Positions 4,043-44,150 of a DNA stretch of 64,000 nucleotides are shown here, piece by piece. Under the pieces are notes generated by a model, which ran no database searches, had not been told where the DNA came from, and worked only from the letters and a program-made list of their open reading frames with translations. Source of the stretch: Tipula vernalis (taxonomy: Eukaryota; Arthropoda; Insecta; Diptera; Tipulidae); assembly GCA_958295665.1 (NCBI GenBank), contig OY282559.1, positions 262,670,057 through 262,734,056 on the forward strand, read 5' to 3'. Every line of letters starts with the position of its first letter. Position 1 is the first letter of the stretch. The translations under genes were made by a program, and so were the position numbers.

Positions 4043-4116
<74 letters not shown>

Positions 4117-4120
4117 TATA
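4043..4120. repeat. (TA)n microsatellite
   Basis: Almost pure TA tract flanking the right end of the transposon and continuing the target-site tract seen at 210-493. Confidence 0.95.
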
Positions 4121-5030
4121 TTTATAGAGTGCTTGTAAAATCAAGTTTGATTTTGCAATAATGATGAAAACTGTTTACTATAAAAATACATTTTCTCGTA
4201 AATTATATCAAGCGACAAAAGTATTTAAGTACACGCCGTAATTGCCTAAATAAATATAAATTTTAAAAAGTTCAATACACAGAGAATTATATGAAATTCC
4301 CTCATCCCGCATTCTAAAATTTTTTGTGCTCGTTTCATTTCCATTTTTTGTTCTCTGGTAAGGTTATACCAGTTGAGTTGTGAAGTAATACCTAATTTTG
4401 CCGAATTGTTTTTGTTTATTTTAATAAATGAAAAGTTCATTTTCTTAAATGTTTGGGATGGCAGACAATAAATTAAACCAATAACAATAAATTTTAAAAT
4501 AAAAAGTTATACACACACGCATAATACACTCGTATAAGAATTAAGAAGGCGAACAGAAAAGAAAACAAATTGATTGATGAGTTTTGCATGAATATTGAAG
4601 AAAATAAAAAAAGCTTTTAAAGCTCACACGAAAACCATCTATATAACTTTCGCCGTTTTACATTTTGATGACTTTTGAAAGCGTCTTTTATTAATAAGGA
4701 TTGATTTTTAGAATTTTTATGAAAGTTTTGAAATTAATAAATATTTATTTTTTTGAATTTAATGTGCACCCACACTCAGCACAAAAATTAATGGCATGGA
4801 AATAGTAATTAAATAATATCTAGGTTTGGCGTGATAATAGCCACGCGATGTGCGCTTTATGCTGATGTTTCATGAATTGGTTTAATGATTTATGTGAGGT
4901 GCAGATTTTTATTAATTGCAAATTAAATATGTAATTGTTATCGTACGTAATAAAGGATGAGCGAAAAAGAGTTTCACCAGGTGAATAGTAAATAAAAAAT
5001 TATTGTGTTGGAATGATTTTGATTTCTTTA
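4121..5030. other. AT-rich intergenic DNA, nothing recognised
   Basis: Non-coding AT-rich sequence. The open frame at 4246-4440 has no recognisable domain and looks like chance. The last 60 bases carry a short GTTTCACC/GGTGAA palindrome that resembles one at about 5655-5676 and may mark the end of the neighbouring mariner remnant. Confidence 0.5.
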
Positions 5031-5044
5031 TTGATCGATAACAA

Positions 5045-5470
5045 TTATGTGTGAAACATAATATTAGTCAAATGTTCACCACGGCTTCCCCGGCACATTT
5101 TAATCCGTTTGTCCAAATTTAGGATGACATCCTGGAATAATCCCTCTTCTATATGCCTTATTACCTTATTATCTCGTTCTTTAGCTCTTGAATGGTTGCT
5201 GTCTTATTGTCATAGACATTACTTTTGAGATAACCCAAAAGAAAGATGGACAAGGTTGTTAAATTGCACGATCTCGGTGGCCAATTGATCTCACTATTTC
5301 GCGAAGTAATGCGTCCCGGGAACTTCTCGTACAATAAAACCTTTATTGCATTGGCTGTATGGTATGTGACACATTTCGTCTACATCCATAACATCCAATT
5401 CGGAAAATAAAAAGTTAGTTGGCGTGGTAAGATAGCATTCACGTCGACAAGTTCACGCTAGATAGATTAT
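5045..5470 (-). pseudogene. mariner-like transposase C-terminal remnant
   Basis: Reading the minus strand from 5470, fragments in shifting frames match the C-terminal half of a mariner/IS630-type transposase. FSELDVMDVDEM resembles the segment before the second catalytic Asp. INWPPRSCNLTTLSIFLLGYLK is the block around the third catalytic acid. The stretch ends in the usual helical tail with LDKRI and a Gly-Arg-rich end. The segment that should read F-Q-Q-D-G-A is lost at a frameshift near 5370, and the third acidic position appears replaced. Short GTTTCACC-type palindromes near 4969 and 5655-5676 could be its terminal repeats. This is an old, inactive copy. Confidence 0.65.
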
Positions 5471-7169: not shown

Positions 7170-8046
7170 TCGTGCACCGAATATTATTGAAAAGTGTTTT
7201 GGGTGAGGTGTGTCCTAAAATCCCGTTTTCGATGTATGTATCATCATAGAACTCTTCATTATCATATACACGTATAATAGTTCCAACAGTGACGCTAGTT
7301 CAGGCGGTGATATAGTAATTCAGATAGTGAGGAAGATCGTGATGTTGATGAAAATGCGGCAGAAACCGGTGACTACTTACACAGATTTACAAAATGATTC
7401 TTGGTATATATAAGGCAGGAGAGTATGATGCTTCTAACCTCATCGATGGAAACAATGAAATTAGTCGAGTCATGCTCGTAATATCATCAATGTTTTAATG
7501 ACATCTTTTTATGCCGTCAAATTCAACCACTTTAGGAGACAGTTCATAGTTTTTTTGGAACATCTCAGCGAGGATTTTACCTTTTCCTGGAGTCGAAATT
7601 ATTTTGCTGTTGTCTAGTGGGTTATTTAAAGGAAGACTAGATGAATATTTTTTTTATGTACCGTATTGTATGCAAGCGGTGTTTGGAACCTTTAACCAGG
7701 TGGCTTAGCTTGTTTTACTATTTACTATTGACCATCTCATATATTTTTTGCCTGATAACGTTTAATAAATTAATTATGTTTTTAAGATAGGGACAGCGTT
7801 TTCGGATCCACTATCTCCGTTTAATGTTTCGAAGTCTTATCAACAATAATACTTCTTCTGAATGTATTAATTTATATATGGAGGAAGACCTTTTTATTGG
7901 AACTGTCAGGTGGATGGCATGATTGATAGAAGAATTAAAATAATCAATGGTTTCACCAATTAGATTATAGTCTGTCGTAGTTTCAGAGAAATTAAAAGCC
8001 TTGATTTGGTTTCGATTTTGCTCACCGGAATTGAGCTGTTAGATAT
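7170..8046. other. intergenic DNA, nothing recognised
   Basis: Possibly includes eroded downstream parts of the Harbinger remnant, but no motif could be supported on either strand. Confidence 0.4.
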
Positions 8047-8480
8047 TGTTACATGTTTGCTTTGTCAAGCAAGGTTCGTATCACTGGCTTGTGAATAAAA
8101 CAAAACAATTCAGTTTATCACAAACGAATTTATTTTTTGCCCACAAAAATAAATACAATACAATTTATTAAAAAAAAATTAACAAAATCACTTTATATAA
8201 ATTTTCGCACAATTTTGCTGTTCACTTATAATTTTTGAATCGCACTACAACACTTTTTAAATCACTCTTTATTCACTTTTTAATCCTTATAGTTTCGCTT
8301 ATCAAATACTCGCCTTTTTATATACACAAACCAAGCTTCTAGAAATTTCATGACTTTTCCATTAAGAATAGTCTAGAAACATTTAGAACAGTTTTATCAT
8401 GGAAAATTCCATTTTAGTACAGTAAAACATTGAGCTATTAATTTAACTTATTCTATTACACCCTAGGTGTCACCGTAACA
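8047..8480 (-). repeat. solo LTR of the Gag-only element family
   Basis: Reads TG...CA on the minus strand, starting TGTTACGGTGACACC. It matches the LTRs at 33355 and 36396 along its whole length, including the segment around GGTTTGTGTATATAAAAAGG (probable TATA box) and the ending that precedes GTAACA. It is 434 bp against 494 bp and visibly diverged, with several small deletions. The 4-bp sequence ATAT lies on both sides (8043-8046 and 8481-8484), the target-site duplication expected for a Gypsy-type insertion. No internal sequence remains, which points to LTR-LTR recombination. Confidence 0.88.
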
Positions 8481-25647: not shown

Positions 25648-26925
25648 ATGGAACGAGAAACTCCGGAAGGACGGAAATTGCGTTTGAATTGTGAACGACA
25701 ACTAAGGTGGAGAAATCGACAGTCGCAAGAAGGTCGTCAACGCAATAATGAGCAAAAACGCCAAGGACTTTTAAATAAAATGCCGGGAGAAGGCATAATT
25801 CACAGAGCTCAAAATGCAAATCGGATGCGAAGATCGAGAGCCGCTGGGAATTCATCGATTTTTGATCATGAAACCTTCCGAGACAATGAAATTAATGCTC
25901 ACAGTTGTGGTGTGATGAATGTTGAATGTCGACATTGCCATTCTCTCAATTTTAGTGCTGAAAAATCTTCGGATGGAAACTTCTAATTTTGTTGCCACAA
26001 AGGAACTGTATTGCTTGAAACTAGCTGCCAGCAAATGCGACAATTTCCGTTTCTTCTTTATGAGCTTCTCAGTAATCCTCATCACCCACATTTTCGAGCC
26101 TTTCATGATAACATTCGATCGTACAACTCTATGCTTGCATTTGCTTCAATGGGTGCGCAAATTCATCAGTTTCAAGGACGAGGCCCTTATGTTTTTCGCG
26201 TTCACGGTCAGATCTATCATCGTACTGGCCACATGCATTCAGCTGAAGGTGAGCAACGACAATATGCTCAGCTATATGTTATCGACTCAGCTATGGCGAA
26301 TCAAGATCGCATGAATCATCCTGCTAATTCGCGATTGAACGCAACTATTGTCAGCACTTTGGATGAAATGATTCGAGAGCAAAATATTTATGCGAAAGCC
26401 TACCGAAATCTTGGTGAGGTTGAGCGGGAGGAAGAACAAGCAGCGGCAGCCGACAATCGAACGCTTCCCGTTGTGAACATGGCATTTCGGCGCGATGTCG
26501 TTGGTCGATCTGTCATCTTGCCATCTTCATTTCAAGGTTCCCCTAGCAACATGCGCGAAAAGTATCACGACTCTATGGCAATTGTGGCAAAGTACGGTAA
26601 GCCTGATCTTTTCATTACTATGACATGCAATCCCAATTGGCCAGAGATTCGAGAGAACCTTTTTCCTGTACAACAGCCCGGTGACAGACCAGATTTGGTT
26701 GCTCGAGTGTTTAGCATTAAGTTGAAAGCACTACTCGATGACATAGTAAAGAACAAGGTTTTTGGAAATGTCATTGCATACGTTTACACGATTGAGTTTC
26801 AAAAAAGAGGACTTCCCCATGCTCACATGCTCTTCATTCTGGCCAATGACTCAAAAATCGACACAGCCAAGAAGATTGATCGATTTGTGTGCGCTGAGAT
26901 TAAGTGCACAAGGACCGATTGTTCA
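25648..26925 (+). pseudogene. Helitron Rep (HUH nuclease) region, tyrosine segment deleted
   Basis: Starts at ATG 25648 with a basic N-terminus and a CRHCHSLNF zinc-finger-like motif. An in-frame TAA at 25984-25986 interrupts the frame, which then continues through NIRSYNSMLAFASMGAQI, the conserved Helitron N-terminal block. Rep motifs follow: DLFITMTCNPNWPEI and the HUH motif in EFQKRGLPHAHMLFIL (about 26800-26840). Normally about 150 residues later comes the motif with the two catalytic tyrosines. Here the sequence jumps at about 26905 from DRFVCAEI straight to EIKKFLDARYV, in another frame. The nucleophiles are therefore gone, and strand cleavage by this copy is not possible. Confidence 0.85.
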
Positions 26926-29167
26926 TGATGAAATTAAGAAATTTCTCGATGCGCGTTATGTTTGTGCTCCTGAAGCAATTTGGCGACTGCTCGAAAATCC
27001 AATGAACGATCGATCGCATGTTGTTTATCGTCTTGCCATCCATCTTCCAGACGAACAAATGGTTTATTTTCAAGACGGCCAAGAAGATGCTGCAGCTGAT
27101 CGAGCTCAACACCGATACACACATCTGACTGCATGGTTTGAGCTTAACAAGCACGAAGACGAGAATGCTCGACAATATTTGTATTCCGAAATTCCTGAGC
27201 ATTACGTATTTGACAAAACTTTTTGCATTTGGAAAGTTCGCAAGCAGAGAGGAGATAGGATTATCACTCGAGTGTATGCTGTCAGTCCGAAAGATCGCGA
27301 GCGCTTTTATTTGAGACTGCTATTACAACACATTCGTGGAGCTCAAAGTTTTACCGATCTTAAGACCGTCGATTCAGTGATTTTTGACACCTTCAATGAT
27401 GCAGCACGAGCCATGAACCTTCTTGAGGATGATAGCGAATGGGAACGATGTTTAAGTGAAGCAAGTCATGTGTGCATGCCGCATCAAATTCGCCTAACAT
27501 TTGCTTTGATTTGTGTCTTCAATTCGCCAAAAAATCCTCTTGCGCTTTTCGAGCAATTCAAGGAGTATTTAATCGCCGACTACATCATGTATTTCGATCA
27601 CATAACCGCTGACAAGAAACTGATTCAAGACATTGAGGTTATTTTGCGCATGAATGGCATGAAATGCACAGATTTTCCCCTTCCTGAACCGGGCCCGATT
27701 CAAAACGTCGAACATGTTTTCGCTGTCAAAGAGCAAGCTCAAATGGCCATAAACTTGATCGCCACCCTTAACCCAATGCAGCGTGCCATTTTCGAAGAGA
27801 TTGCTGCTGTAATTGATGATTCGATGGCTGAGTCGAGATTTTTCTTCCTCGACGGTCCTGGCGGTTCGGGAAAAACTTACATTTACAACACTTTGATGAG
27901 TTATGTAAGAGGCCAGAGTAAAATTGTTCATGCTTTCGCCACGACAGGAATTGCAGCGGATTTATTAGTTGGTGGTAGAACTGCCCACAGTGGTTTCAAA
28001 ATTCCGCTTTCTGCTAACGAAACATCGGTGTCATCCATGAAAATCCCCTCGCAGGAATCCATTAAATTACGAGAAGCTGAAATGCTCATTATCGATGAGG
28101 CTTCACTTCGCATTCTCTTCGAGTGATTGATCTGCTTCTGCGAGGAATCATGAGTAATATTCGTCCTTTCGGTGGCAAGATTCTCATCCTTGGCGGTGAC
28201 TTTCGACAAACCTCAAATGTTGTTCCCAGAGGAAAAAATGCTGATATCATCGAAATGTGCGTGAAAAATTCTCTTTTGTGGCGGCATATGAAGCAGCGAA
28301 CTCTCATCACCAACATGCGAGCATTTGGACAACGAGAGTTCAACGAATGGGTTTTGCAATTGGGCGATGGCAGATTACGAAATGATCTGGAAGAAGCCGA
28401 TCCCGATTTAGTCGAAATTCCTGAGGAAATAATAGAGCGTGAAAACATCATCATTCGATCAATTTTTGGAGTTGAAATTCGAACAACAACTGCTGATGAA
28501 ATCGCCGATGTCACCAACAAGATCATTCTCAGTCCAAAAAATGTTCATGTCACAAAGCTCAACAATGCCATTCTCGATCTTTTACCGGGAGATGCAACAA
28601 CCTTCCTGAGCAATGACTCAATGATCTCCGACGACCCGAACGATGCAATCGATTTTCCAGTCGAATTTTTGAATTCTCAGACCCCTTCTGGCTAGCCTCC
28701 TCATTCACTGAAATTGAAAGTTGGTGCGTTCATCATGTTGCTAAGGAATTTTATCCAAAGAAGGGACTTCTGAATGGAACTCGATTGATCGTGAAAAGCT
28801 GTTCAGGAATTGTATCAAGGCGGAAATAATCGCAGGCAGCAATAAGGGAGCGGAAGTTTGCATCCCCCGAATCGACTTGGAACCAAGCGAAAGCAGCTTA
28901 GGATTTCAAATGAAGCGACGACAATTTCCCATCATTTTGGCTTTTGCAATGACGATTAACAAGGCTCAGGGACAATCATTCGATAAGGTTGGGGTGTTTT
29001 TACCAGAACCTGTTTTTGCTCATGGCCAGCTTTATGTAGCTTTAACGCGAGTACGAAATCATGAAAACCTTAGAGTGCTGATCAACAATTTCTCATACCA
29101 AGGCGCAATAATAAATGATAACTGTACATTTACAAGAAACGTTGTGATAAAAGAATTATTGAATTAA
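26910..29167 (+). pseudogene. Helitron PIF1-like helicase region
   Basis: Continues the same polyprotein in a second frame (to 28126), then a third (28123-28695) and further shifts to 29167. It begins with a linker (ARYVCAPEAIWRLLENPMNDRSH). Walker A is DGPGGSGKT at about 27850, Walker B is MLIIDEAS at about 28083, then LILGGDFRQT (motif III-like). The C-terminal motifs AMTINKAQGQSFDKVG and LYVALTRVR lie at about 28950-29060. Small deletions or frameshifts occur just after Walker B (about 28110) and again around 28695-28870, where stops accumulate. The role in intact Helitrons is unwinding during rolling-circle transposition. Confidence 0.88.
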
Positions 29168-31796: not shown

Positions 31797-32845
31797 AATA
31801 ATAATAATAATGCTTTATTCAATGTATAAACCGTGGCTTTTGTACATCACACATATTTACGACAGCAGAAAATAACTTAAAATTAACAATAAATATTTCA
31901 ATATCAATATAACAATAATTAGCAAATATACAACAATGGACATACTATATATACATTAATTACAATATGTACAAAAACTTTGATATTAAGTTACTAATTT
32001 AAACATAACCTTTTTAAATCTGTTAATGGAACTTATATTTTTTAATTCTGTAGGCAAACTGTTCCCAGTGATAATCGCATTTATTAATCCAGAGTTATTG
32101 TAAACATTAGTTCTACTAACTGGCAAATTAACGTTCCTAGTTCTCAATGACATAGAACGACATAGACAAGTCACATCCAAGGATTGAATCTTTAAATTCG
32201 GAAACATGATCAAACTTTCTAAGGTCATGAACATATCTCACACAATTTTTAAACGTAACCTCAAGTAACCGCTTTGAGGAACTATCACAATTAGAAAATA
32301 TCACATCACAATAGCTGAAAATTGGTATAATTAAACTTTTCACAAGATATATGCATAAGTCAACTGGACAAAATTTTTTATTAGTCTGAGTGAATATAAA
32401 CCGTAATTAACACGCTGGCACATAGAACTTACATGATCATTCCAAGTAAGTTTTGAATTCAATAGTAATCCTAGGTTATTAACCGTTGGAACAAATGAGA
32501 TTATATCATTGTTCAAAAATAGCACAGGTGCAATATTATGCGAATTATTTCTAGTGAGCAATAATGCTTTAGTTGGATTAATGGAAAGTGAATTATTTTT
32601 GGCCCATGACGAAATATTCCTCAGATTTGCATTAAGTTGAATAACGATTTCCCCCAATTTTAACAAGTCACCACCAATATACAGTTGCAAATCATCAGCA
32701 TAAAGATGAAATCGGCAATTTAAAATATGCCAAGGTAGGTCATTTATATAAATGGAAAAAAATAAAGGGCCTAAAATTGATCCTTGAGCCACCCCAGCAA
32801 TTACATTACTTATACCAGAAAGATCATCACCAAGCTTTATAAATT
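31797..32845 (-). pseudogene. CR1/Jockey-like LINE, 3' half of reverse transcriptase
   Basis: Minus-strand RT sequence starting right at the Gypsy insertion: LGDDLSGISNVIAGVAQGSI leads into GPLFFSIYINDLP (fingers/palm), then the catalytic box FHLYADDLQLYI (about 32690), then WAKNNSLSINPTKALLL and a thumb region with frame changes near 32340 and 32230. In this group G-V-P-Q-G is usual; here it is G-V-A-Q-G. The 3' end on the minus strand is (ATT)n near 31797-31810. The 5' half of the same RT is at 42750-43705, beyond the nested Gypsy element. Confidence 0.85.
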
Positions 32846-33354
32846 TGTAGTATGTGCCCTTATTTTTTTTTTTTAATAAAATAAAAACACAAGTAATTAA
32901 CTTCACTTTTTAAAAAAACTTTATTTTCAAACAATTTTATTGTATTATATGTATATAGCACCACCGTTTCGATTGCGCGTCGTATAAGTACTGCCTCTCA
33001 AAAAGAAGAAAAACCCGAAATAATGCGCGAACGATTTTGATTCCCCTTCCCCTCGAAAAAGTTTGGCTGTATTAGAAAAGTGGCTTATAGTGTACGCAAA
33101 TTTTATATGGACGTATGACGAGCAAAGTAGTATAATAATATGAATTCGTTGTATGTATATATTAATTATGTATGTATTATACCGTCGTGATTATTTCACG
33201 AAATTTTGGACATGCCGGATGGTAATAAAAAGTACAAATAAAAACATCGTGGTTTTATATGTAAAATGGAAAGCAATTTGACTACATTATTTATTTCATC
33301 TACCGTTCAATCTTTGGTTATTGCGAGCGCGCATGACAACAAAAGAGAATGTAT
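32846..33354 (-). repeat. outer Gypsy 3' LTR, first part
   Basis: Starts TGTAGTATGTGCCC on the plus strand. The minus strand holds AATAAA-type signals near the end. Interrupted after 33354 by the Gag-only element, whose target duplication GTAT is 33351-33354. Compared with 42239-42745 it has about 118 bp more around 33060-33180. Confidence 0.92.
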
Positions 33355-33848
33355 TGTGACGGTGACACCTAGTGTGCAATAGAATAAGTAAAACTAATAG
33401 CTCAATGTTTACTGTACTAAATGGAATTTTCCATGATAAAAATTGTTACGTAATGTTTCTACGCTATTCCAACTGGAAAAGTCGTGAACTTTCGAGAAGC
33501 TTGGTTTGTGTATATAAAAAGGCGAACAAGATCGAATTGGATTATTAGTATTTGGAACGCGATAGTGTAAAGGTGTAAGAATAAGTAATATTTGGAAAGC
33601 GATAGTATAAAGATTAAAAAGGAATTAAAAAGTGATTTAAAAAGTGTTTTTGTGCGAAATAAAAAGTAAAAGTGATTAGTAAAATTTGAGAATAATTTAT
33701 ATAAAGTGATTTTGTGAATTTTGATTGATAAACTGTGTTGTAATAAATTTTGTGAAATAAATAAATTCGTTGGTGATAAATTGAATTGAGTTTGTATTAT
33801 TCACAATCCAGTGATACGAACCTTGAGTGACAAGGCAAAAACGTAACA
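33355..33848 (+). repeat. 5' LTR of Gag-only element
   Basis: Starts TGTGACGGTGACACC, ends AACGTAACA. GGTTTGTGTATATAAAAAGG near 33503-33522 is a plausible TATA-box promoter region. One base differs from the 3' LTR. Confidence 0.95.
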
Positions 33849-33851
33849 AAT

Positions 33852-33868
33852 TGGTGACAGCGGTGGGA
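33852..33868 (+). promoter_or_regulatory. candidate primer-binding site, Gag-only element
   Basis: TGGTGACAGCGGTGGGA, three bases after the 5' LTR, starts with TGG as for tRNA priming. The tRNA was not identified. The first seven bases match the outer Gypsy site. Confidence 0.6.
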
Positions 33869-33891
33869 TTGTGAATAAAAAGATAAAGAAA

Positions 33892-36384
33892 ATGATTCTC
33901 AGCGAATTAAAAGTTCCAGAATTAAAGAGCGAACTTGAGAAACGGGGTTTGGCTACTGATGGTGGTAAAGCAGCTTTACAAGCGCGACTACGTGATGCCA
34001 TGGAGAAAGAAGGGCTGGACGCGGAACATCATGATTTTGGAGAGAAAGTAACGGATGCGGCAACCGTAGAGCAGAAAGCAGAAGATAAACAACCGTTGGT
34101 CGAAAAGACACAAGAACATTCTGGAAGTTTCGATTTGTCGCAGTTAATAGCTGCTATGAACCAGATGACGGGACAGATGAGTCTAATGAAACAACAAAAC
34201 GAACGACAGCTAGGAGAAATTAAAAATCAAATGGCGCAACAAGCAGTGCAGTCAAACCAAGAAATTAAGAATGAAATGGAACAACAAAATGTGCGGCAGT
34301 TGGAGACTATAAACCAGTCAAACGAAGAAATAAAACGACAGTTGGAACAACAAAATCAGTCTAACCAAGAAATGAAACAACAAATGGAGACTATAAATCA
34401 GTCAAACCAAGAAATGAAACAACAAGGAGAGGAAATTAAAGACCAAATTATAGATGGTCAAAAGAGAATGGACGAGAAACTTCTCGAATTATCTACTAAC
34501 ATTCACGGCGAAGTGGAGAAGCTGCAAATGGAGATTCAAAAGGTTGACGAAAAATATGAAACGAAGGTTCAGCAGGTCGAAGAAAAATTACAAGCAGAGG
34601 TTCAACGTCTCGGGAAAGAGCTAACTGATATCAAGGCAAGTGGAACAACAACACAAGTGGTACAAACCATTCAATCAGTTAAGTTAAAACCACCAAACTT
34701 CGACGGTACAACATCTTTCGTCATTTTCAAATTTCAATTTGAGACGGCAGCCAATCAAAATCATTGGAACGACGAACATCGTGTCGCAGCGTTAATAGTG
34801 GCCCTTAAAGGTGAAGCAGCGGAGGCCTTACAAACAATTCCGGAAAAAGATCGCAACAGTTATCTCGAAATTATGAAGGCGCTGGATAGGAAGTACGGAA
34901 GTGACCACAAGCGTGAAATCTATCGAATGGAATTGAAAAGCCGCTACCAAAAGGGAGGAGAATCACTTCAGGAATTTTCATCGGCAATCGAGCGACTAGT
35001 ACATCTAGCACATACCAGTACGTCGGCTGATTATATGGAAAGGCTAAAAATTGACGCATTCATTGACGGCATTCGAGATCCAGAGACACGCAGGGCGGTG
35101 ATGTTGTTACCTAAAGCAACGTTTGCGGAAACCGTTGCGTTTGCGTTAACGATCGAGGCTGTGCAGAACTTCACCAGACCGTCATTATTTAGGCGCCAAA
35201 TGAACTCAGACAAGAACGGCAGCATGGAGCGAATGGTACCGACAGTCGGAAGAGGCAGGCTTAGGTGTTGGAAATGTGACAAGTTGGGTCACATCTCAAT
35301 GGACTGTCGGAGTGTTATACAGAGAAAGATGAGATCGCCACCTTTTATGCGGACAAACGCCGAACGGTCGGGACAAAGGTCTAGAAGCAGCGAGCGAAGA
35401 TGTTGGGTATGTAACAGGATTGGCCACATCTCGCGAGATTGTTTGGAAGCAGGAGGAAAGCGACACGGATCACCATCTTCCGTGGAAAGAGCACGAAGAG
35501 CAGAGCAGGGAACGGATGAGCGGATGGCAACAGTCGGTAAAGTGGAAAGGTTAGAAGTCAGTTTGAAGGAACCGAAGCTGGCTTCACCGTCTGGTTGCCC
35601 CATAACATTCATCCCTGTTACGAGTGAAGCACGAGGCGGAAGCAGCGTCACAGTTAGGGGCGGTGTTGATGGGAGGAGGTGTATTATTACGCTGGATACC
35701 GGAGCAACCCACACAATTGTTCGGAAAGATTTGATCGCAGGAGCAGTGCAGCTGGTTGATGGGTTAAAATTAAGAATGGCAAATGGGGAGAGTGCAATGA
35801 TTAAAGGGAAAAAGATCGTGAGCATAAGGATCGGCGAAACTCTTTTCCCACACGAAATTCTAGTCGCAGACATTGTGGACGAGGTCATTTTGGGAACGGA
35901 CTTCATGAGGATGAATGGCTTTGTGTTGGATTTTGGCCGAGGAATATTGAGTAGCGATAACATCGAGCTGAAACCTAAGTTTAACGGTACGGATGCGACA
36001 GTAAGGCGAGTAACAATCAGTCATTACGAGGAGCTGCCATCGAAATCTGAAACAATTGTTGAGGAAACCAAAGAACACCAGGTTAAGCAGACTTTGGATA
36101 AGAAGGGCCGAGTTGTGCGAGGTAGAGTGCGAGTGTCGGGCGACTGGATGAGAACTCGATGTGCCATACGGGCAAATGGCCAGGGATTACACGAGGGGCA
36201 ACTGGTGTGGCATCACAACTCGCAACAAAAGAAGGGGGATTTATCGGCGAAAGTGCAGCCTATATGGACGGCACCCTACAGGACAAGAAAAGGACAAGGA
36301 GGTAAACCAATGGCGGTACATTTAGAGAGGCTGGCCCTCTACCGAGGAGGTAATTTCGGTCCTGTTCGGGACGAACAGGCTTAG
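33892..36384 (+). CDS. SAP-like domain Gag-protease protein with integrase-tail remnant
   Basis: 830 codons, uninterrupted. The first ATG is 33892; the open frame reaches further upstream only through GTG. Order: residues 1-40, a SAP-like DNA-binding helix pair (LKVPELKSELEKRGLATDGG); about 80-240, a Gln/Glu/Asn-rich coiled coil built of degenerate SNQEMKQQ-type repeats; about 265-425, a capsid-like region (KPPNFDGTTSF, ALKGEAAEALQ, ALDRKYG, ERLVHLAH); two CCHC knuckles, CWKCDKLGHISMDC and CWVCNRIGHISRDC (35268-35442); an aspartic protease with LDTGATHTIV (35690) and VILGTDFM. Then at about 36100-36160 the frame passes directly into ANGQGLHEGQLVW...WTAPYRT, the C-terminal tail of a Gypsy integrase. 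Everything in between (RT, RNase H, integrase core) is missing, yet the frame stays open. It is likely able to form particles. The SAP domain call is by motif only. Confidence 0.88.
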   Translation: MILSELKVPELKSELEKRGLATDGGKAALQARLRDAMEKEGLDAEHHDFGEKVTDAATVEQKAEDKQPLVEKTQEHSGSFDLSQLIAAMNQMTGQMSLMKQQNERQLGEIKNQMAQQAVQSNQEIKNEMEQQNVRQLETINQSNEEIKRQLEQQNQSNQEMKQQMETINQSNQEMKQQGEEIKDQIIDGQKRMDEKLLELSTNIHGEVEKLQMEIQKVDEKYETKVQQVEEKLQAEVQRLGKELTDIKASGTTTQVVQTIQSVKLKPPNFDGTTSFVIFKFQFETAANQNHWNDEHRVAALIVALKGEAAEALQTIPEKDRNSYLEIMKALDRKYGSDHKREIYRMELKSRYQKGGESLQEFSSAIERLVHLAHTSTSADYMERLKIDAFIDGIRDPETRRAVMLLPKATFAETVAFALTIEAVQNFTRPSLFRRQMNSDKNGSMERMVPTVGRGRLRCWKCDKLGHISMDCRSVIQRKMRSPPFMRTNAERSGQRSRSSERRCWVCNRIGHISRDCLEAGGKRHGSPSSVERARRAEQGTDERMATVGKVERLEVSLKEPKLASPSGCPITFIPVTSEARGGSSVTVRGGVDGRRCIITLDTGATHTIVRKDLIAGAVQLVDGLKLRMANGESAMIKGKKIVSIRIGETLFPHEILVADIVDEVILGTDFMRMNGFVLDFGRGILSSDNIELKPKFNGTDATVRRVTISHYEELPSKSETIVEETKEHQVKQTLDKKGRVVRGRVRVSGDWMRTRCAIRANGQGLHEGQLVWHHNSQQKKGDLSAKVQPIWTAPYRTRKGQGGKPMAVHLERLALYRGGNFGPVRDEQA

Positions 36385-36395
36385 GTGAGGGGTAG
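36383..36395 (+). promoter_or_regulatory. polypurine tract, Gag-only element
   Basis: AGGTGAGGGGTAG directly before the 3' LTR, overlapping the end of the open frame. Confidence 0.75.
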
Positions 36396-36889
36396 TGTGA
36401 CGGTGACACCTAGTGTGCAATAGAATAAGTAAAACTAATAGCTCAATGTTTACTGTACTAAATGGAATTTTCCATGATAAAAATTGTTACGTAATGTTTC
36501 TACGCTATTCCAACTGGAAAAGTCGTGAACTTTCGAGAAGCTTGGTTTGTGTATATAAAAAGGCGAACAAGATCGAATTGGATTATTAGTATTTGGAACG
36601 CGATAGTGTAAAGGTGTAAGAATAAGTAATATTTGGAAAGCGATAGTATAAAGATTAAAAAGGAATTAAAAAGTGATTTAAAAAGTGTTTTTGTGCGAAA
36701 TAAAAAGTAAAAGTGATTAGTAAAATTTGAGAATAATTTATATAAAGTGATTTTGTGAATTTTGATTGATAAACTGTGTTGTAATAAATTTTGTGAAATA
36801 AATAAATTCGTTGGTGATAAATTGAATTGAGTTTGTATTATTCACAATCCAGTGATACGAACCTTGATTGACAAGGCAAAAACGTAACA
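36396..36889 (+). repeat. 3' LTR of Gag-only element
   Basis: 494 bp, same ends as the 5' LTR, followed by GTAT. AATAAA-like words near 36790-36805 could serve polyadenylation. Confidence 0.95.
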
Positions 36890-37008
36890 GTATTTTGGTA
36901 AATTATTTCACTAACGCCTGAATGTTAGCGCAAAATACGATTACGTTATTTTCCAATTGGAGCGCGATTGAAATTTTATTTTATTTAAAATTTAAATCGG
37001 TCGCTACA
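36890..37008 (-). repeat. outer Gypsy 3' LTR, second part
   Basis: Resumes with the duplicated GTAT and continues to GGTCGCTACA, matching 42631-42745 almost exactly. Confidence 0.92.
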
Positions 37009-37021
37009 GTACTCCCCTCCT
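37009..37021 (-). promoter_or_regulatory. polypurine tract, outer Gypsy
   Basis: Minus strand AGGAGGGGAGTAC directly precedes the 3' LTR start TGTAGCGACC. It would prime plus-strand DNA synthesis. Confidence 0.75.
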
Positions 37022-37045
37022 AGTTGATTCTAGTAAAACTTGAAT

Positions 37046-40000
37046 CTAAACGATAAATGACACTGCTTGGTTGGTTCGGGATTGTAAAGTATGCTCAACC
37101 GAACTTAGGATGCCAAAAGCAGGTTTAAGTCTATCAATTGAAATATTATGATTTTTGTATTTGATAGATATAATAAAATATTTACGAAGGCGTCGTATGA
37201 CTTTGTCAGGTCCTTCATAAGGAGGAGTGAGTCCAACACAAACTCTGTCAGACCTGACAAAAACAAAATCACAGTTGTCCAGAGCTTTCGGGACAAATAT
37301 GCGGTTCTGAGTTGCTATACGCGTAGGTGCAGGTATGAGATTTTTCATTGTGTTTCGGTGTTGGTCGACTATTGTGTCGCTAGAAGGTAACGGTGAAGAA
37401 GGATTGTCAACAAAGAACTCCCCGGGAAGTTTAATGGTCTGACCATAAACCATCTCTGCGGGTGAGCATTTAAGATCTTCTTTCACAGAAGCACGTATAC
37501 CTAATAAAATAATTGGAATTTCAGAACTCCAATTAATAGTGTTGCCTCTGGCCATTAGAGCAGCTTTAAGCTGTCTATGGAAACGTTCAACCATGCCATT
37601 GGCTTTAGGATTGTAAGCCGTTGTACGAATACGATTAGATCCAAGAAGTTTAGTTAATTCTGAGAAAAGCTTGGATTCGAATTGTGTGCCCTGGTCAGTT
37701 GTAATCTGCGCAGGAACACCAAAACGTGCAATGTAATTATTGACAAATGTAGTAGCAATGGTTGCGGCTGTCATGTTGACCATGCAGTACGCTTCAGACC
37801 ATCGTGTAAGTAAGTACACATGTAAGTAAGTACGAATATCCATTGGAAGGAGGAAAAAGTCCTACTATATCCAAATGGATATGCTCAAATCGACCAGGTG
37901 GAATTTCGAATTGACCATACGGTGAGATAGTATGGCGTTGCACTTTTGAACGTTGGCAAGCACTACAAGAACTCGTCCATTGGGTTACGTCCCTGTTGAT
38001 GCTTGGCCAAAAATAGCGAGCCGTAACCAATTTACGAGTGGCTCTGATACCAGGATGTGATAAATTATGTAACGAGTCGAATATAGCTCGACGTAAAACT
38101 TTTGCGATATAAGGGCGATTTTTGCCTGTAGATGTTTCGCAATGGACTTCGAGGCCGGGTAAAATAATTAGTTCAAGCTTCCATTTGGAAGTTGACTGGC
38201 GTCCCGATTTATCTAGTAACGATTTAAGTTCGTCGTCGGATCGCTGTGTCGAAATAATGTTATTATAACTGCAGTCTGTTTCAACTGCGGCCGAGTCAAC
38301 ATTATTTGTTCTTGATAAGGTATCTGCGACAACATTGTCGGTACCAGGCACATGCTGGATATCGGATGTAAATTGGCTAATGAAATCCAAATGGCGTGAT
38401 TGCCTAGGATTACGTTCAGTTTTAGACTGAATAGCTCTAATTAATGGTTTATGATCTGTGAAAACTGTAAACTCACGGCCTTCCACAGAATATCTAAAAT
38501 GCTTAATAGCTTGATAAATTGCTAAAAGTTCCCTATCAAATGCTGAGTATTTTAACTCAGGATTCGTTAATTTTTTAGAATAGAATCCTAACGGTTCCCA
38601 TTTATTATTATTATACTGCTGCAGAACAGCGCCAACGGCGGTGTTTGATGCATCAGTAGTAATGCTAATTTTGGCGTCACTCAAAGGGTGCGCTAGCAAT
38701 GTAATTTTGGCTAGTTCGTTATTTAACTGAGTGAATGCTACTTGACATTCCTCGGGCCATGAAAAGTTTTTAGCTGTCTTAGGTTTTTTATTCAAAGAAG
38801 ACAAATGGCCGTGTATCGGTGCGAGATATTCAGCTAATCTGGGTATGAATCGGTGATAATAATTGATCATTCCGATATACCGCTGAATATGCTTAATTGA
38901 ACTAGGAACTGGGAAATCCTTGATTGCTCGGATTCTTTCCACACTGGGTTGGATTCCAACAGGGGAGATCTTGTGGGTCAAAAAATCTAAAGTCTGTACG
39001 CCAAAAACACACTTTGGTGTTTTGATATGTACATCATACATGGCTAGTCTTTGAAATAATTGTTCGAGATGCAATAAATGTTGTTGTTCATTCTCTGAAG
39101 CAACTAAAATATCATCAATGTATACATAAACGAAGTCGAGTCCGCGGACCACCTCGTTCATAAATCGCTGGAATGTCTGTGCAGCGTTTCGTAGACCGAA
39201 AGGCATACGTGTGAATTCGAAGAGTCCAAAAGGCGTAATAATAGCCGTTTCATGGATATCTTCCTCTGCGATTGGTATTTGATGATAAGCTCTGACAAGA
39301 TCTATTTTTTGAAAATATAGTGCAACCATTCAAATTCATAGAGAAATTTTGAATGTGGGATATCGGATATCTGTCCGGTGTAGTAACCGTATTTAGCTGC
39401 CGATAATCTCCACATGGTCTCCAATCGAGATCTTTTTTGCGTACCATGTGTAAAGGACATGATACGTGGGACGCCGATGGTCGACAAATACCCAATTCCA
39501 CCATATGTTGGAACTCAAATTTTGCGGCGTTGTGTCTATCGGGATCTAGTCTTCGTGGTCGCGCCGTTGGTAAATGACCTGTAGTTACAATGTGGTGTAC
39601 AACATTGTGGCGGACCGGTAACTTGAAATCAGGCAGTGCTGTAAGAGTAGGAAATTTTCGTAGCAGCGTGCCGTAAGCGTTATTAATAACAAAATTAATG
39701 GGGGTAGGAGTTGGATCGTTTTTAATTACCGCACACACTGATAATTCAGTGAGAGTATCAATTAGTCGCTTTTGTTTCAAATCGACTAATAGGCCGAACT
39801 TTACAAGAAAGTCGGCGCCAATGATCGGACGGTTCACCGCTGCAATTATAAAGGCGTGAGTGAAACTGCGTTTTAGACCGATATCTAATTTGATCAACTT
39901 CGTACCATAAGTACGAATAGCTGATCCATTGGCTGCTGTTAGAGCTGGATCCGATTTTCTATTAAGATATATATTTATTTTTACAAAATTCAATGGGATG

Positions 40001-40128
40001 ACCGATAGGTCGGCGCCCGTGTCTATTAAAAAATTCATATTAGTATTTTTGTCATATATAAATAGTCGGTTACTAAGTAATTTATTTACCGTAACCGATT
40101 TTACTTTGCCGCCCCCTAATCGTTTTTT
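37046..40128 (-). pseudogene. outer Gypsy Pol: protease, RT, RNase H, integrase
   Basis: Protease: [13 protein letters not shown] (about 40030). [37 protein letters not shown] and the catalytic VYVYIDDILVAS (about 39120). RNase H: ISITTDASNTAVGAVL, REFTVFTDHKPL and GTDNVVADTLSR. Integrase: the HHCC zinc finger (HNLSHPGIR...CSACQ), catalytic Asp in HIHLDIVG, Asp in TTDQGTQF and Glu in NGMVERFHR, then a C-terminal domain to the stop at 37046. Lesions: one extra A in an A6 run near 39312 shifts the RT frame, and around 37805-37835 a short ACTTAC-type duplication replaces the segment after LLTCV in integrase. All other catalytic residues are intact. Gypsy superfamily, no env. Confidence 0.92.
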
Positions 40129-41033
40129 GGTTGAGCCGATGATTGCTCAACGTTGGCTTTATATGTCTTATTAAAATTGCAAGGCGGTTTGCAATTGTTT
40201 GCTCGCATTTTATATTTATTATGGTTGTAACACCATTGTTTATTATAATTAGGTAATCATATATGGTAATTTCCGCGGTCATTCGAGTTTCGATTCCCGG
40301 AATTACTTCGATTCCTATAATTGCCATTAAAGTTGCGGGAGGTACTCCTACCTCTGTTGTTACCTAACTGGTTAGATAAATTATTTAAACGGGCCTCCAT
40401 CGTGTTCAACTTTTGCATAATAGCTTGCAGGCTTAATGGCTTATTATTATTTGTATTGGTGGTTTTAAAACTGTTATTAAGTGGTGGTCTAAATGAACTG
40501 GATGAAGATGGTTTATTTATTTGTGCCATTGCTGGCGTACGATCCATGGCATCGTAAATTTTATCGGCCATCTTCGCCAGTACATTCAATTTGGCATCGT
40601 CTGGCTGAGTCATCAGCGTAATACGCACCACTTCCGGTAATCTTCTTGTCCAGAATGTTTTGACTATAAAATCGTTAAAATTTTGGCCTGCTAGTGATTC
40701 TATTTTCTGGAGGAGTTCGGATGGGTGCATATCGCCAAGATCGATGCCACTCAATAATAATTCCAGTTTACGTTCGCCATTTAGAGCGAGTCTCTGGATT
40801 AGAGTTGCTTTTAATGCTTCGTATTGATTTTCTTTTGGTGGTTTTCGTATGAAATCGCTCATTTTTTCGCTGACCTCAGGAGTGAGTGCCGTTATAACGT
40901 ATACAGCTGTTTTACTATCCGATTTAATTTTTGCCAGTTCGAATTGATACTCGGCGGTATCAAACCACGTCTGTGGATTATCAATCCAGAATGGCGCCAA
41001 TTTAACACTCATAATTTCGTGATCAACCTCCAT
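40116..41033 (-). pseudogene. outer Gypsy Gag
   Basis: Starts ATG 41033 (MEVDHEIMSVKLAPFW). The matrix/capsid-like helical region includes NPQTWFDTAEYQFEL, IDLGDMHPSELLQKIE and KMADKIYDAM, followed by a Ser/Asn-rich linker and an Arg/Asn-rich stretch near 40330. An in-frame TGA at 40257-40259 cuts the frame; beyond it the same frame encodes WCYNHNKYKMRANNC...PC, the Cys/His cluster that ends Gag in this clade, and stops at TAG 40118-40116. The -1 slippage site lies seven codon-steps earlier. The nonsense codon is consistent with a C-to-T change at CGA. Confidence 0.85.
40122..40128 (-). promoter_or_regulatory. -1 ribosomal frameshift heptamer A AAA AAC
   Basis: On the minus strand AAAAAAC is in the correct phase: gag reads CCA AAA AAC GAT TAG, and slipping back one base gives AAA AAA CGA TTA, entering the pol frame just before the protease. 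The gag stop is two codons downstream. This is the canonical X XXY YYZ slippery site. Confidence 0.75.
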
Positions 41034-42216
41034 ATGTTGAAGTTCCTATGTTGAGTATCTCATCCGCCATTTCAAAAAGTAAAACGCAAAACCACCAAAA
41101 GAAATTATAAAAAGAAAAATTGGTATTGGTGCGGCTTAGTATGCGCAGATCGTTTGAACGATCGCAATACCTGTCCTAAAATTATATGTGTAGTTTATTC
41201 GCAATCGTGTTACTTATTAAACTGTGATTATATTTAATATGTATCGTAAACTACGTGAAATTACCGAAAGAATTATTGGAACAATTGCGCAACTTAATAA
41301 TAATGATCGAATAATGAATGACGTAAGAAATTTAACCCATCAATTATTGGACGTAATAAATGTGTCAGAAAATAACCCAACCAAACTATTTCAAAAGTAC
41401 TATGGTTCCGCACAATTCAACGTTATGTATAAAATCGGAATGCAACATTCGAAAACACAGAAATAAATGAATGGTGCTAAATTTACAGAATGAGGTTAGT
41501 ATAAGCCTAATGTGTTTTTAAAAAAACAAACAGGATATATAAATTATTCTTTTAGTGTTAGTAATTATATAATATAATGATTTATGTATCATAGAAATAT
41601 ATTATTTCGTTTTTATGATAAAAATGTAATGTTTATATGTGTCACTAACTAGGTGATTCTACTTTACTTTTACTTTTCTTTCTTCATCGGCAAAAAAAAA
41701 AAATAAAAAAACTCATCTGTAAATTTTGATGCGGTTGATGTAAGCTGCGATGGTGTCCTTCGATGTAATTGATGATGTCCATTGATGAAACTGCTGATTA
41801 ATTGCGATTGCGTATCTGCATGTCCAATATGGCTACCAAAATACACGCGTTTTCGTATTTAATTTTCCGCTGAGTTTCCGAAATTGAATAATCGTAATTA
41901 TATTTATACAATTTTTAATTTGCGGCAAAGCTCGCCACAATCACAAATAGTTGTAGGTCGTGGAAATTAATATCCACCCGTGTCGCAGGTTACGTCGGAA
42001 AACAAGAAATAATTTGTTTTAATATTTTGTGGATAATTCACTTGTGATAAATATGGTTATAAAAGGTTATAAAAGAAATGGCTGTACGTACCATTTTCTT
42101 GGCACGAAAAACTTGTGCCAAGAGTCCAATTATTTTCGTATAATATCCAAAATTTTCAGCTTAAGCTAAATGTAGGTGCTTATAAATCTGCTGCTGCGGC
42201 TCCTATTCCCTAAAAA
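41034..42216 (-). other. 1.2-kb leader of outer Gypsy element
   Basis: Region between primer-binding site and gag. No sense coding signal; it carries the antisense ORF at 41239-41466 and a short palindrome GATCGTTTGAACGATC at about 41149. Confidence 0.6.
41239..41466 (+). CDS. antisense ORF in Gypsy leader, 75 codons, unknown
   Basis: An ATG at 41239 opens a 75-codon frame on the strand opposite to gag-pol (MYRKLREITERIIG start, QHSKTQK end). The peptide is hydrophilic and predicted helical, with balanced charge and no Cys. No domain is recognised. Its normal amino-acid composition in a non-coding leader is suggestive, but chance cannot be ruled out at this length. If expressed, it could encode an accessory protein or simply mark an antisense transcript. 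Confidence 0.3.
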   Translation: MYRKLREITERIIGTIAQLNNNDRIMNDVRNLTHQLLDVINVSENNPTKLFQKYYGSAQFNVMYKIGMQHSKTQK

Positions 42217-42234
42217 GGGCCGTCGGAGTCACCA
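42217..42234 (-). promoter_or_regulatory. candidate primer-binding site, outer Gypsy
   Basis: On the minus strand TGGTGACTCCGACGGCCC lies four bases inside the 5' LTR and starts with TGG, complementary to a tRNA CCA end. The tRNA was not identified. Confidence 0.6.
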
Positions 42235-42238
42235 AAAA

Positions 42239-42745
42239 TGTAGTATGTGCCCTTATTTTTTTTTTTAATAAAATAAAAACACAAGTAATTAACTTCACTT
42301 TTTAAAAAAACTTTATTTTCAAACAATTTTATTGTATTATATATAGCACCACCGTTTCGATTACTTGTCGTATAAGTACTGCCTCTCAAAAAAAAGAAAA
42401 ACCCGAAATAATGCGCGAACGATTTTGATTCCCCTCGAAAACCGTCGAGGGGCCGATACCGTCGTGATTATTTCACGAAATTTTGGACATGCCGGATGGT
42501 AATAAAAAGTACAAATAAAAACATCGTGGTTTTATATGTAAAATGGAAAGCAATTTGACTACATTATTTATTTCATCTACCGTTCAATCTTTGGTTATTG
42601 CGAGCGCGCATGACAACAAAAGAGAATGTATTTTGGTAAATTATTTGACTAACGCCTGAATGTTAGCGCAAAATACGATTACGTTATTTTCCAATTGGAG
42701 CGCGATTGAAATTTTATTTATTTGAAATTTAAATCGGTCGCTACA
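42239..42745 (-). repeat. outer Gypsy 5' LTR
   Basis: 507 bp, TG...CA ends. Nearly identical to the interrupted LTR except for a missing block of about 118 bp, replaced by a short CCCCTCGA...TCGAGGGG inverted repeat near 42435-42455. Confidence 0.92.
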
Positions 42746-42749
42746 AATT

Positions 42750-43724
42750 GTTTACGATTACTCAAATAAGAAAGAAGCAACAAAATAGCAGAATCTGAAA
42801 AATTATAATATAACTTTAACTTTTGATTCAAAAGGATATGATTAACACAATCAAACGCTTTAGAAAAGTCTAATAGGACTAAAATTGCAAATGAATTACT
42901 TTTATCTAAAATAGCAGATAAATCATCAACAATACGCACAAGTGCAGTACTAGTACTACGGCCAAATTTGTATCCAGATTGGAATTTCCATAGATAATTA
43001 AAGCTATTAAGATGCTGAAGAATTTGAAGTTGTATAATTTTTTCCAGGACCTTGGATATGGCAGGCGAAATACTAATCGGGAGAGTGTCACAAATATTCG
43101 AAATTACATCCTTTTTAGGTAGAGGAATAGTCGATGCCACTTTCCACAAATTAGGAAATACTGATTTGGTCAAACTCTGGTTAATGATAAATGTAATTTG
43201 GGACAGAAACAAATCAATAAATAATTTTATTACTCTGAAGTTTACCATGTCATATGCCATCGAATCAGACTTAACCGTATGAATTGCATTCAATACCGTT
43301 CATCGACATAATCAAAAACAAACCCATAACTATTAGAACTAATAAAATCAAAATCGGGTAAGGGCAAAACACCTATAGATTCGTTAAGTTTACTGATCCC
43401 TACCAAAATTTCATCAGCAGAAAAGTCAATGACTGCTTCAGTCGACTTACATGAAATACCTAGTTTCTTCAAATTGCTCCAGGTTGTTTTAGGTTTGTGC
43501 AAATTTCCAAAATAAAATATATTTTTAGCTTGATTGATGTATTTGTTGGTTTTATTTCTAAAAGATTTAAATGATTCAAAATTGAGCTCTAATCCAAATC
43601 TTTTATATTTTTTGTAAGCCAAATCTCTTCTTTGCATTAAATTCAAAATAGGTGCCAATCCAAATTTATAATCAGGAACAACCGTATATGAAATTTTCTT
43701 CATTTTATCGGTGTACGTAAGCAA
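42750..43724 (-). pseudogene. CR1/Jockey-like LINE, 5' half of RT and upstream linker
   Basis: Minus strand. A linker rich in Lys and aromatic residues (43705-43290: LAYKKYKRFGLE, FKSFRNKTNKYINQAKNIFY) is typical between endonuclease and RT in this group. The frame then shifts at about 43290 into RT: LWKVASTIPLPKK, LPISISPAISKVLEKII, FQSGYKFGRSTSTALV, and the first catalytic Asp in LLDFSKAFDCVNH (about 42870). RT is cut at YLSNRKQFV by the Gypsy insertion and continues at 32845. The endonuclease domain is absent; the LINE seems 5'-truncated at about 43705, where repeat X starts. Confidence 0.85.
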
Positions 43725-44150
43725 TATTGACGTTTGTATGTTAAAACTGCAACCTAAACTTCACTAAATCCACTAAGTTAATTAATTAAGTTCAATACAT
43801 TTAGCATCTCGATTTTCATTTACATAATTCCACATTGTTCACATTCATTGAATCAAAATTTTGCATACATAAATAAATACGTCATTCAACGTTCAACCAA
43901 ATCTCAATTCAACTCAATGGATGGTGGATTTCATTTTCCAAAATTACACTATAATTATTATTTCACTTACACTTTAATTATTATTTCACTGGAATTTATT
44001 TGATTTAGAATTAAAAATGAAATGTTATGCTTTATATACATATGTATATAAACTATATACATTACATTTGACACTAACAACACTTAAATAAAAATAAGAT
44101 TAAATTAAATTTTGAAGAGGAAAAAAAACACGTCTGTCCTCTTTGAATGT
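43705..44150 (-). repeat. dispersed repeat X, copy 2, proximal part
   Basis: Reverse complement matches 14912-15119 and 19130-19362 in that order without the 4-kb interruption of copy 1. Non-coding, AT-rich. Identity unknown. Confidence 0.6.

Follow-up and report, generated by a model that had tools for sequence, protein, structure and literature searches.

A semi-autonomous Gag-protease retrotransposon family that probably depends on, and recombines with, a full-length helper in Tipula vernalis

We analysed a 64,000-nucleotide stretch of the Tipula vernalis genome (positions 262,670,057 to 262,734,056 of contig OY282559.1, assembly GCA_958295665.1). We call this stretch the window, and coordinates are positions within it. 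The window contains an intact Ty3/Gypsy-type element of 3,535 bp, with exact bounds at 33355-36889, as had been noticed in a sequence-only reading of the window. This element is probably a copy of a large, long-lived, and semi-autonomous family, which would provide Gag and protease in cis, use the enzymes of a full-length family in trans, and recombine with that family. We refer to the short family as G and to its full-length helper as A.

The element and its copies

The two long terminal repeats (LTRs) of the element are 494 bp each, have TG...CA ends, and differ only at one base (G33827/T36868). A sequence that resembles a primer-binding site (PBS), TGGTGACAGCGGTGGG, begins at 33852, downstream of the 5' LTR, and a purine-rich tract, GGTGAGGGG, lies directly 5' of the 3' LTR. 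The PBS-like letters are identical in 23 of the 24 copies of G and A that we compared (see below), with TGGTGGCAG in copy G52; two copies are readable only to GGGA. The element lies within an LTR (32846-37008) of an older Gypsy element on the minus strand. The partner LTR of that older element (42239-42745) is uninterrupted at the insertion point and has a single GTAT. Because this is an empty site, the element is a clean insertion. Thus, the LTR pair, the GTAT target-site duplication (TSD), the primer site, and the polypurine tract (PPT) of the sequence-only reading were all recovered.

Between the LTRs is one open reading frame (33892-36384, 830 aa) that encodes a SAP domain, Gag, two CCHC knuckles, a protease, and the tail of an integrase. 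In Pfam, residues 3-37 match SAP (PF02037; E = 7.4e-11, 41.8 bits versus a cut-off of 23.9), the capsid piece matches Retrotrans_gag (E = 2.1e-7), the CCHC profile matches two stretches (E = 2.2e-7), and the protease matches gag-asp_proteas (PF13975; E = 1e-7). The AlphaFold2 model of the capsid piece is all-helical (mean pLDDT of 80.6). Pfam gave no match in this protein to reverse transcriptase (RT), RNase H, or the integrase core, as had been expected. The tail (residues 713-819) matches the C-termini of integrases among K02A2.6-like arthropod proteins (E ~1e-10 to 1e-11), a kinship that is read from the names of the proteins; searched alone, the tail had no Pfam family. These matches bear out the domains that had been read from the sequence. 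The coiled coil is a probable one, read from the 42-nt repeats (14 codons, or two heptads).

The SAP domain, read as DNA-binding, had been thought unusual at the N-terminus of a Gag and a possible influence on nuclear entry or targeting. The Pfam match upholds the domain itself, though not as a mark of the Gag-only form. The Gag of helper A aligns with the window's Gag across the whole SAP domain (by alignment only), and three other Gags (P0001, P0017 from Bactrocera dorsalis, and P0018) have SAP above the Pfam cut-off. SAP is, as judged from sequence, a property of this group of Gags, including those of A and of other species, and not of the Gag-only form. Among titles and the starts of abstracts, we found no literature on retrotransposon Gags with SAP. 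In viral contigs, two stretches matched a search pattern, and neither encodes a relative. A homology search scored on residues 1-60 gave nothing at E <= 1, with a piece that is too short for that database. Separately, one annotated protein from Aromia moschata (P0021) combines gag, a partial protease, and an integrase C-terminus. It could represent another family with a deletion, but it could equally be a gene model with a splice, and we did not count it as a second case.

We searched for copies in the window's own assembly (1.27 Gb, 340 contigs). An exact 36-mer at G's junction between protease and integrase tail had 221 matches, on both strands and on several contigs, and an exact 36-mer at A's boundary between protease and RT had 321 matches (controls: 0 for both, that for G being the reversed sequence). 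These 36-mers miss diverged copies: the marker is absent from 2 of 15 G copies and from 1 of 9 A copies. With 181-base probes for the junction and for the helper's RT, 40 of 40 scored places were full-length and 100% identical in each case (from 900 and 1364 first-look candidates), and a probe made from the LTR found 57 matches when 40 of its 1561 first-look candidates were scored. So, the junction is not a one-off, and the full-length relative that had been suspected is present in the genome. The junction had been placed at 36100-36160; it is real, and lies slightly to the left of that, at about 36057-36114.

Our sample has 15 G copies: the window's, nine from loci with LTR matches to it, and five chosen from the 40 junction hits. 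The 9 A copies in the sample all come from loci that were likewise located by their LTR matches. Partial or older copies were left out (for instance, the second G in L034, the first copy in L041, and parts in L038, L042, L045, L048, and L050). All 15 G copies have the junction in common, and each has its own flanks. They have 2358-2547 bases between their LTRs, and in 12 of them a single frame of 781-844 aa covers nearly the whole length (679, 738, and 780 aa in the other three). Matching 4-bp TSDs flank 13 of the 15 (11 ATAT and 2 GTAT), and the LTRs of 14 differ at 0-1 base (plus a gap in one of these).

In the A copies, the LTRs are 5.0-5.2 kb apart. They enclose gag and, overlapping it in the -1 frame, pol. 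The pol frame (1205-1216 aa) is open in 6 of the 9 copies. One A copy, searched in three pieces, matched RVT_1, RNase H, H2C2, rve, and Integrase_p58_C in Pfam, in the order RT - RNase H - integrase. All 7 A copies with matched TSDs have ATAT. In the copies compared, G and A have near-identical LTRs, the same PBS and PPT, and the same preference for ATAT, and the 3' LTRs of four G copies and four A copies are identical. With paired TG..CA LTRs, short TSDs, and (in A) RT and RNase H followed by integrase, both families are of the Ty3/Gypsy type by their order of domains.

Some copies adjoin each other. In 18 rows, an LTR hit of this group lies 0-12 bases from another LTR hit (loci L034, L036, L038, L041, L042, L044, L045, L048, L049, L050, and L051). 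In 8 of the 18, the two hits are separated by ATAT or by a longer run of (AT), a rate that is not representative, as the loci were picked by LTR. This suggests that elements have inserted time and again at ATAT next to copies already present. Among the junction matches listed, at least 7 same-strand pairs are ~2.9-3.5 kb apart (for example, C1:89637913/89641298, C1:174714188/174717731, and C2:76193529/76196415), which suggests tandem dimers that share an LTR. Also, L041:467-3546 (minus strand) is a different and independent deletion derivative, in which A-type internal positions 1-1182 are joined to 4060-5050.

Relation of G to A

We then compared the window copy, segment by segment, to nine other G copies and nine A copies (the five G copies picked by their junctions were excluded). 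From the 5' untranslated region through SAP (5'UTR-SAP), identity is 88-100% for G and 90-99.5% for A, and in the capsid (CA) it is 87-97% for G and 86-95% for A. From nucleocapsid to protease (NC-PR), identity is 94.6-96.6% for G and 67.7-69.5% for A. The step is sharp and lies near internal position 1336. Between G and A, CA identity is 86-96%, versus ~68% for NC-PR.

Trees of 24 copies gave the same picture. In the protease (PR) tree, a single change separates G from A, with support of 100/100. The G/A labels need 5, 8, and 4 changes in the LTR, 5'UTR-SAP, and CA trees, and an approximately unbiased (AU) test rejected G as a clade in all three (p = 0.0026, 6e-60, and 7.6e-4, respectively; for LTR and 5'UTR-SAP, rows that are identical on both sides were left free). 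Compared to 300 shuffles of the labels, LTR (5 versus a mean of 6.1) and 5'UTR-SAP (8 versus 7.6) look random. A scan of 150-base stretches showed a patchwork in the 5' half, a G-like core in 15 of 15 copies, and A-like ends in G33 and G51. These A-type tails (2 of 15 G copies) have different breakpoints. Both G33 and G51 are flanked by matching ATAT duplications, and their LTRs differ by 1 and 0 bases, respectively, so these recombinants have themselves transposed.

G and A also differ in how Gag is joined to the protease. In 9 of 9 A copies, gag ends with the heptamer GTTAAAC nearby. In the A copy that we examined in detail, the zero frame reads G TTA AAC, and a spacer of 6 bases separates this from a downstream 10-bp stem. 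The folding z-score is -3.05 for 59 bases (a stretch chosen after the stem was seen) and only -0.86 for 90 bases, and the loop GGGGC could pair with a downstream GCCCC (by eye only). We predict that A uses a -1 frameshift. In all 15 G copies, the heptamer is missing from internal positions 1200-2000, and Gag, protease, and tail are in one frame in G. In the window's copy, a stem still folds at the corresponding place (z = -1.68), and we predict that the ancestor of G also frameshifted.

Is the protease of G still functional? Between G and A (13 of 15 G and 8 of 9 A copies), the ratio of non-synonymous to synonymous divergence (dN/dS) in PR is 0.24, with dS of 0.94. Within G (15 copies), omega is 0.36-0.45. 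Relative to the window copy, the distinct codon changes in PR comprise 19 that are synonymous and 22 that are non-synonymous, and the latter are fewer than expected (P from 0.001 to 0.009, depending on the weight of transitions). CA within G has 38 synonymous and 21 non-synonymous changes (P below 1e-9), although this segment also passes between G and A. Also, we compared one G to one A at sites that are conserved in outgroups. In PR (two outgroups), 6 sites were lost by G, 4 by A, and 35 were kept by both. In the tail (three outgroups), 14 were lost by G, none by A, and 19 were kept; the tail of G also has an 11-residue deletion. Since PR sites were lost about equally by G and A while tail sites were lost by G alone, G seems to have kept the function of the protease, about as constrained as in A, and its tail seems to have decayed and lost the function of the integrase.

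We propose that G's RNA is translated into a single protein (SAP-Gag-NC-protease plus a vestigial integrase tail) and needs no frameshift of the kind predicted for the helper. We infer that this protein assembles with the Gag and Gag-Pol of A into mixed particles, in which A's RT and integrase would copy and insert G via the PBS, PPT, and LTR ends that the two have in common. When RNAs of G and A are packaged together, template switching would continually replace the LTRs and the 5' half of G, and at times also its 3' end, and only the core would remain private to G. (The centre of the core is unexchanged in 15 of the 15 copies studied.) More tentatively, the core (two knuckles, the unshifted Gag-protease fusion, and a short tail) may have been selected together as a module, which would set G apart as a parasite of A and would favour G's own RNA in mixed particles. 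If this is true, then G and A would be an ancient modular system of two retrotransposons in an animal (PR dS of ~0.9 between G and A).

Other accounts need to be weighed. LTR retrotransposons do produce internal deletions, and the first copy in L041 has a different, A-derived one, so a full-length insert might have been shortened once, as it integrated or later, to give the window's element. This is refuted by the 221 exact matches to the junction and by the 15 copies that share it, each with its own flanks, and we give it next to no weight. It is also very unlikely that G arose from A by a recent deletion and was then amplified. The presence of full-length A and, in the copies compared, the near-identical LTRs and the same PBS, PPT, and target preference would fit, but G has a second knuckle, lacks the frameshift heptamer, and forms a separate clade (100/100) with NC-PR ~68% identical and PR dS of ~0.9. 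G's core is too far from A for a recent deletion, and this account would need a core that evolves very fast. The earlier proposal of a deletion derivative that was itself copied therefore holds in that G is non-autonomous and has many copies, but not in that G would be a simple deletion of A. G's origin is either an early split from A's ancestor, with continued borrowing of A's ends, or a core from another family. In the latter case, which is possible but short of probable, the deletion would have occurred in an unseen full-length family B, and A-type ends would have been gained later by recombination. The sharp step in identity would be expected, and the closest full-length core that we found is A's, at 68%. 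Against this, a degenerate 29-base probe for the protease-RT boundary (up to 1 mismatch) had 671 matches, and the three that we fetched are degraded old A-type copies, in what was a narrow search. Family B concerns only the origin of G and is compatible with the mechanism proposed above.

Several observations weigh against our main interpretation. G/A switches in the CA tree number 4, versus a mean of 7.5 in the shuffles (2 of 300 as low), so CA is not freely mixed. The five G copies picked by their junctions have 3' LTRs that are only 95.8-98.4% identical to the window's, and the likeness of G and A LTRs is overstated because all A copies and ten G copies were chosen from the loci with the best LTR matches to the window's element, or from neighbours of these. 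Within G, the tail has 10 synonymous and 17 non-synonymous changes, including one stop, which is not significant (13 copies); a pairwise value for the tail within G included the recombinant G51, and we do not rely on it. Finally, G53 and A43 have no matching TSDs and continue into the PBS of another copy, as products of LTR-LTR exchange would, so exchange at the DNA level could make part of the mosaic. That the mosaic is mainly due to ectopic gene conversion between DNA copies seems unlikely, even though juxtaposed LTRs and same-strand junction pairs exist: G33 and G51 are mosaics that moved as units, as their duplications and LTR pairs indicate. We still prefer a semi-autonomous G that recombines with A.

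Insertion site and neighbouring features

The coordinates of the element's features are in Table 1. The element is part of a nested insertion (32340-43760), inside the minus-strand Gypsy element, which by eye seems to split the frame of a non-LTR reverse transcriptase (pieces at 32340-32909 and 42718-43760). A solitary LTR at 8046-8479 (minus strand) is ~74% identical to the element's LTR and is an older relative. Frames at 25987-28695 may encode a Helitron-type helicase, which their translation resembles.

Table 1. Features of the G element and of its insertion site, in window coordinates
Feature	Position	Strand	Basis
Interrupted LTR of older Gypsy (target), left part	32846..33354	-	LTR comparison
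Left TSD copy, GTAT	33351..33354	.	single GTAT in uninterrupted LTR 42239-42745
5' LTR, 494 bp	33355..33848	+	one mismatch vs 3' LTR
PBS-like sequence TGGTGACAGCGGTGGGAT	33852..33869	+	putative, by sequence
Gag-protease-integrase tail frame, 830 codons, stop included	33892..36384	+	translation
SAP domain	33898..34002	+	PF02037
42-nt (14-codon) repeats, probable coiled coil	34249..34440	+	repeat structure
Capsid region	34798..35076	+	Retrotrans_gag and AlphaFold2 model
CCHC knuckle 1	35257..35313	+	Pfam CCHC
CCHC knuckle 2 (none in helper Gag ends, four A copies)	35398..35442	+	Pfam CCHC
Aspartyl protease, LDTGA	35656..35910	+	PF13975
Deletion junction zone, protease to integrase tail	36057..36114	+	segment comparison; exact 36-mer 221x in genome
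Decayed integrase C-terminal tail	36115..36384	+	homology and outgroup comparison
Polypurine tract GGTGAGGGG and TAG	36384..36395	+	sequence
3' LTR, 494 bp	36396..36889	+	LTR pair comparison
Right TSD copy, GTAT	36890..36893	.	single GTAT in uninterrupted LTR 42239-42745
Interrupted LTR of older Gypsy, right part	36894..37008	-	LTR comparison
Partner LTR of older Gypsy, empty site	42239..42745	-	LTR comparison

G and known non-autonomous elements

By its sequence features, G qualifies as a non-autonomous GAG-Pro family: it has a Gag frame, no RT or integrase core, multiple copies, and a partner with the same PBS, PPT, and LTR ends. In plants, the TR-GAG elements are LTR elements with only a GAG domain. 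Unlike them, G has a protease and an integrase remnant in the same frame, and an animal host.

The closest plant element by content is RLG_Sabrina_SA of wheat, a semi-autonomous GAG-Pro Gypsy that has GAG and protease, lacks RT and integrase, and has a high copy number; the proposal is that an autonomous Gypsy mobilises it (PMC9744471). G is similar in its gene content and copy number, but its host is not a plant, and neither SAP nor an integrase tail is mentioned for Sabrina_SA in the available text. Also, G resembles its helper far more closely in the LTRs and the 5' half than in the core. RLG_Quinta of einkorn encodes Gag, is non-autonomous, and shares its PBS and LTR ends with the autonomous RLG_Cereba; its mosaic GAG was ascribed to template switching (PMC11302176). 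As with G and A, there is a Gag-encoding partner, a common PBS and LTR ends, and a mosaic Gag. But Quinta's mosaic is between two Quinta lineages, Quinta is targeted to centromeres, and the available text mentions no protease fusion. The sequence-only reading had compared the element to BARE-2, wrongly: BARE2 has a disrupted GAG and its other genes are intact (PMC9744471). This is the reverse of the window's element, whose Gag frame is intact and whose RT and integrase core are missing.

In insects, we found no semi-autonomous Gag-protease family among titles and the starts of abstracts, in a search that most subscription papers fall outside of. CM-gag of Culex pipiens is said to be a repeat that holds only a gag gene, and is an insect gag-only precedent to the extent of that title (in the references of PMC3286476). 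In the mouse, IAP 1-delta-1 has an internal deletion that created a novel Gag-Pol fusion frame; it needs other IAPs in trans, and its own fusion protein acts in cis (PMC6466679). G has the same kind of deletion and fusion frame, but IAP 1-delta-1 is a deletion-type derivative of a vertebrate endogenous retrovirus, and the two are compared by description only.

G and A would allow us to ask why a parasite keeps its own Gag, and whether shared particles drive the homogenisation of LTRs. One animal genome has hundreds of marker copies of both partners, and the record of recombination separates their shared parts from their private parts. The loss of the predicted frameshift in the still-spreading G bears on how strict the ratio of Gag to Gag-Pol must be. 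Most known Gag-only LTR partners are from cereals, and a derivative of a mouse retrovirus is the best experimental case that we found. If our interpretation is correct, then G and A are a clear animal case of a partnership that has been described mainly in plants.

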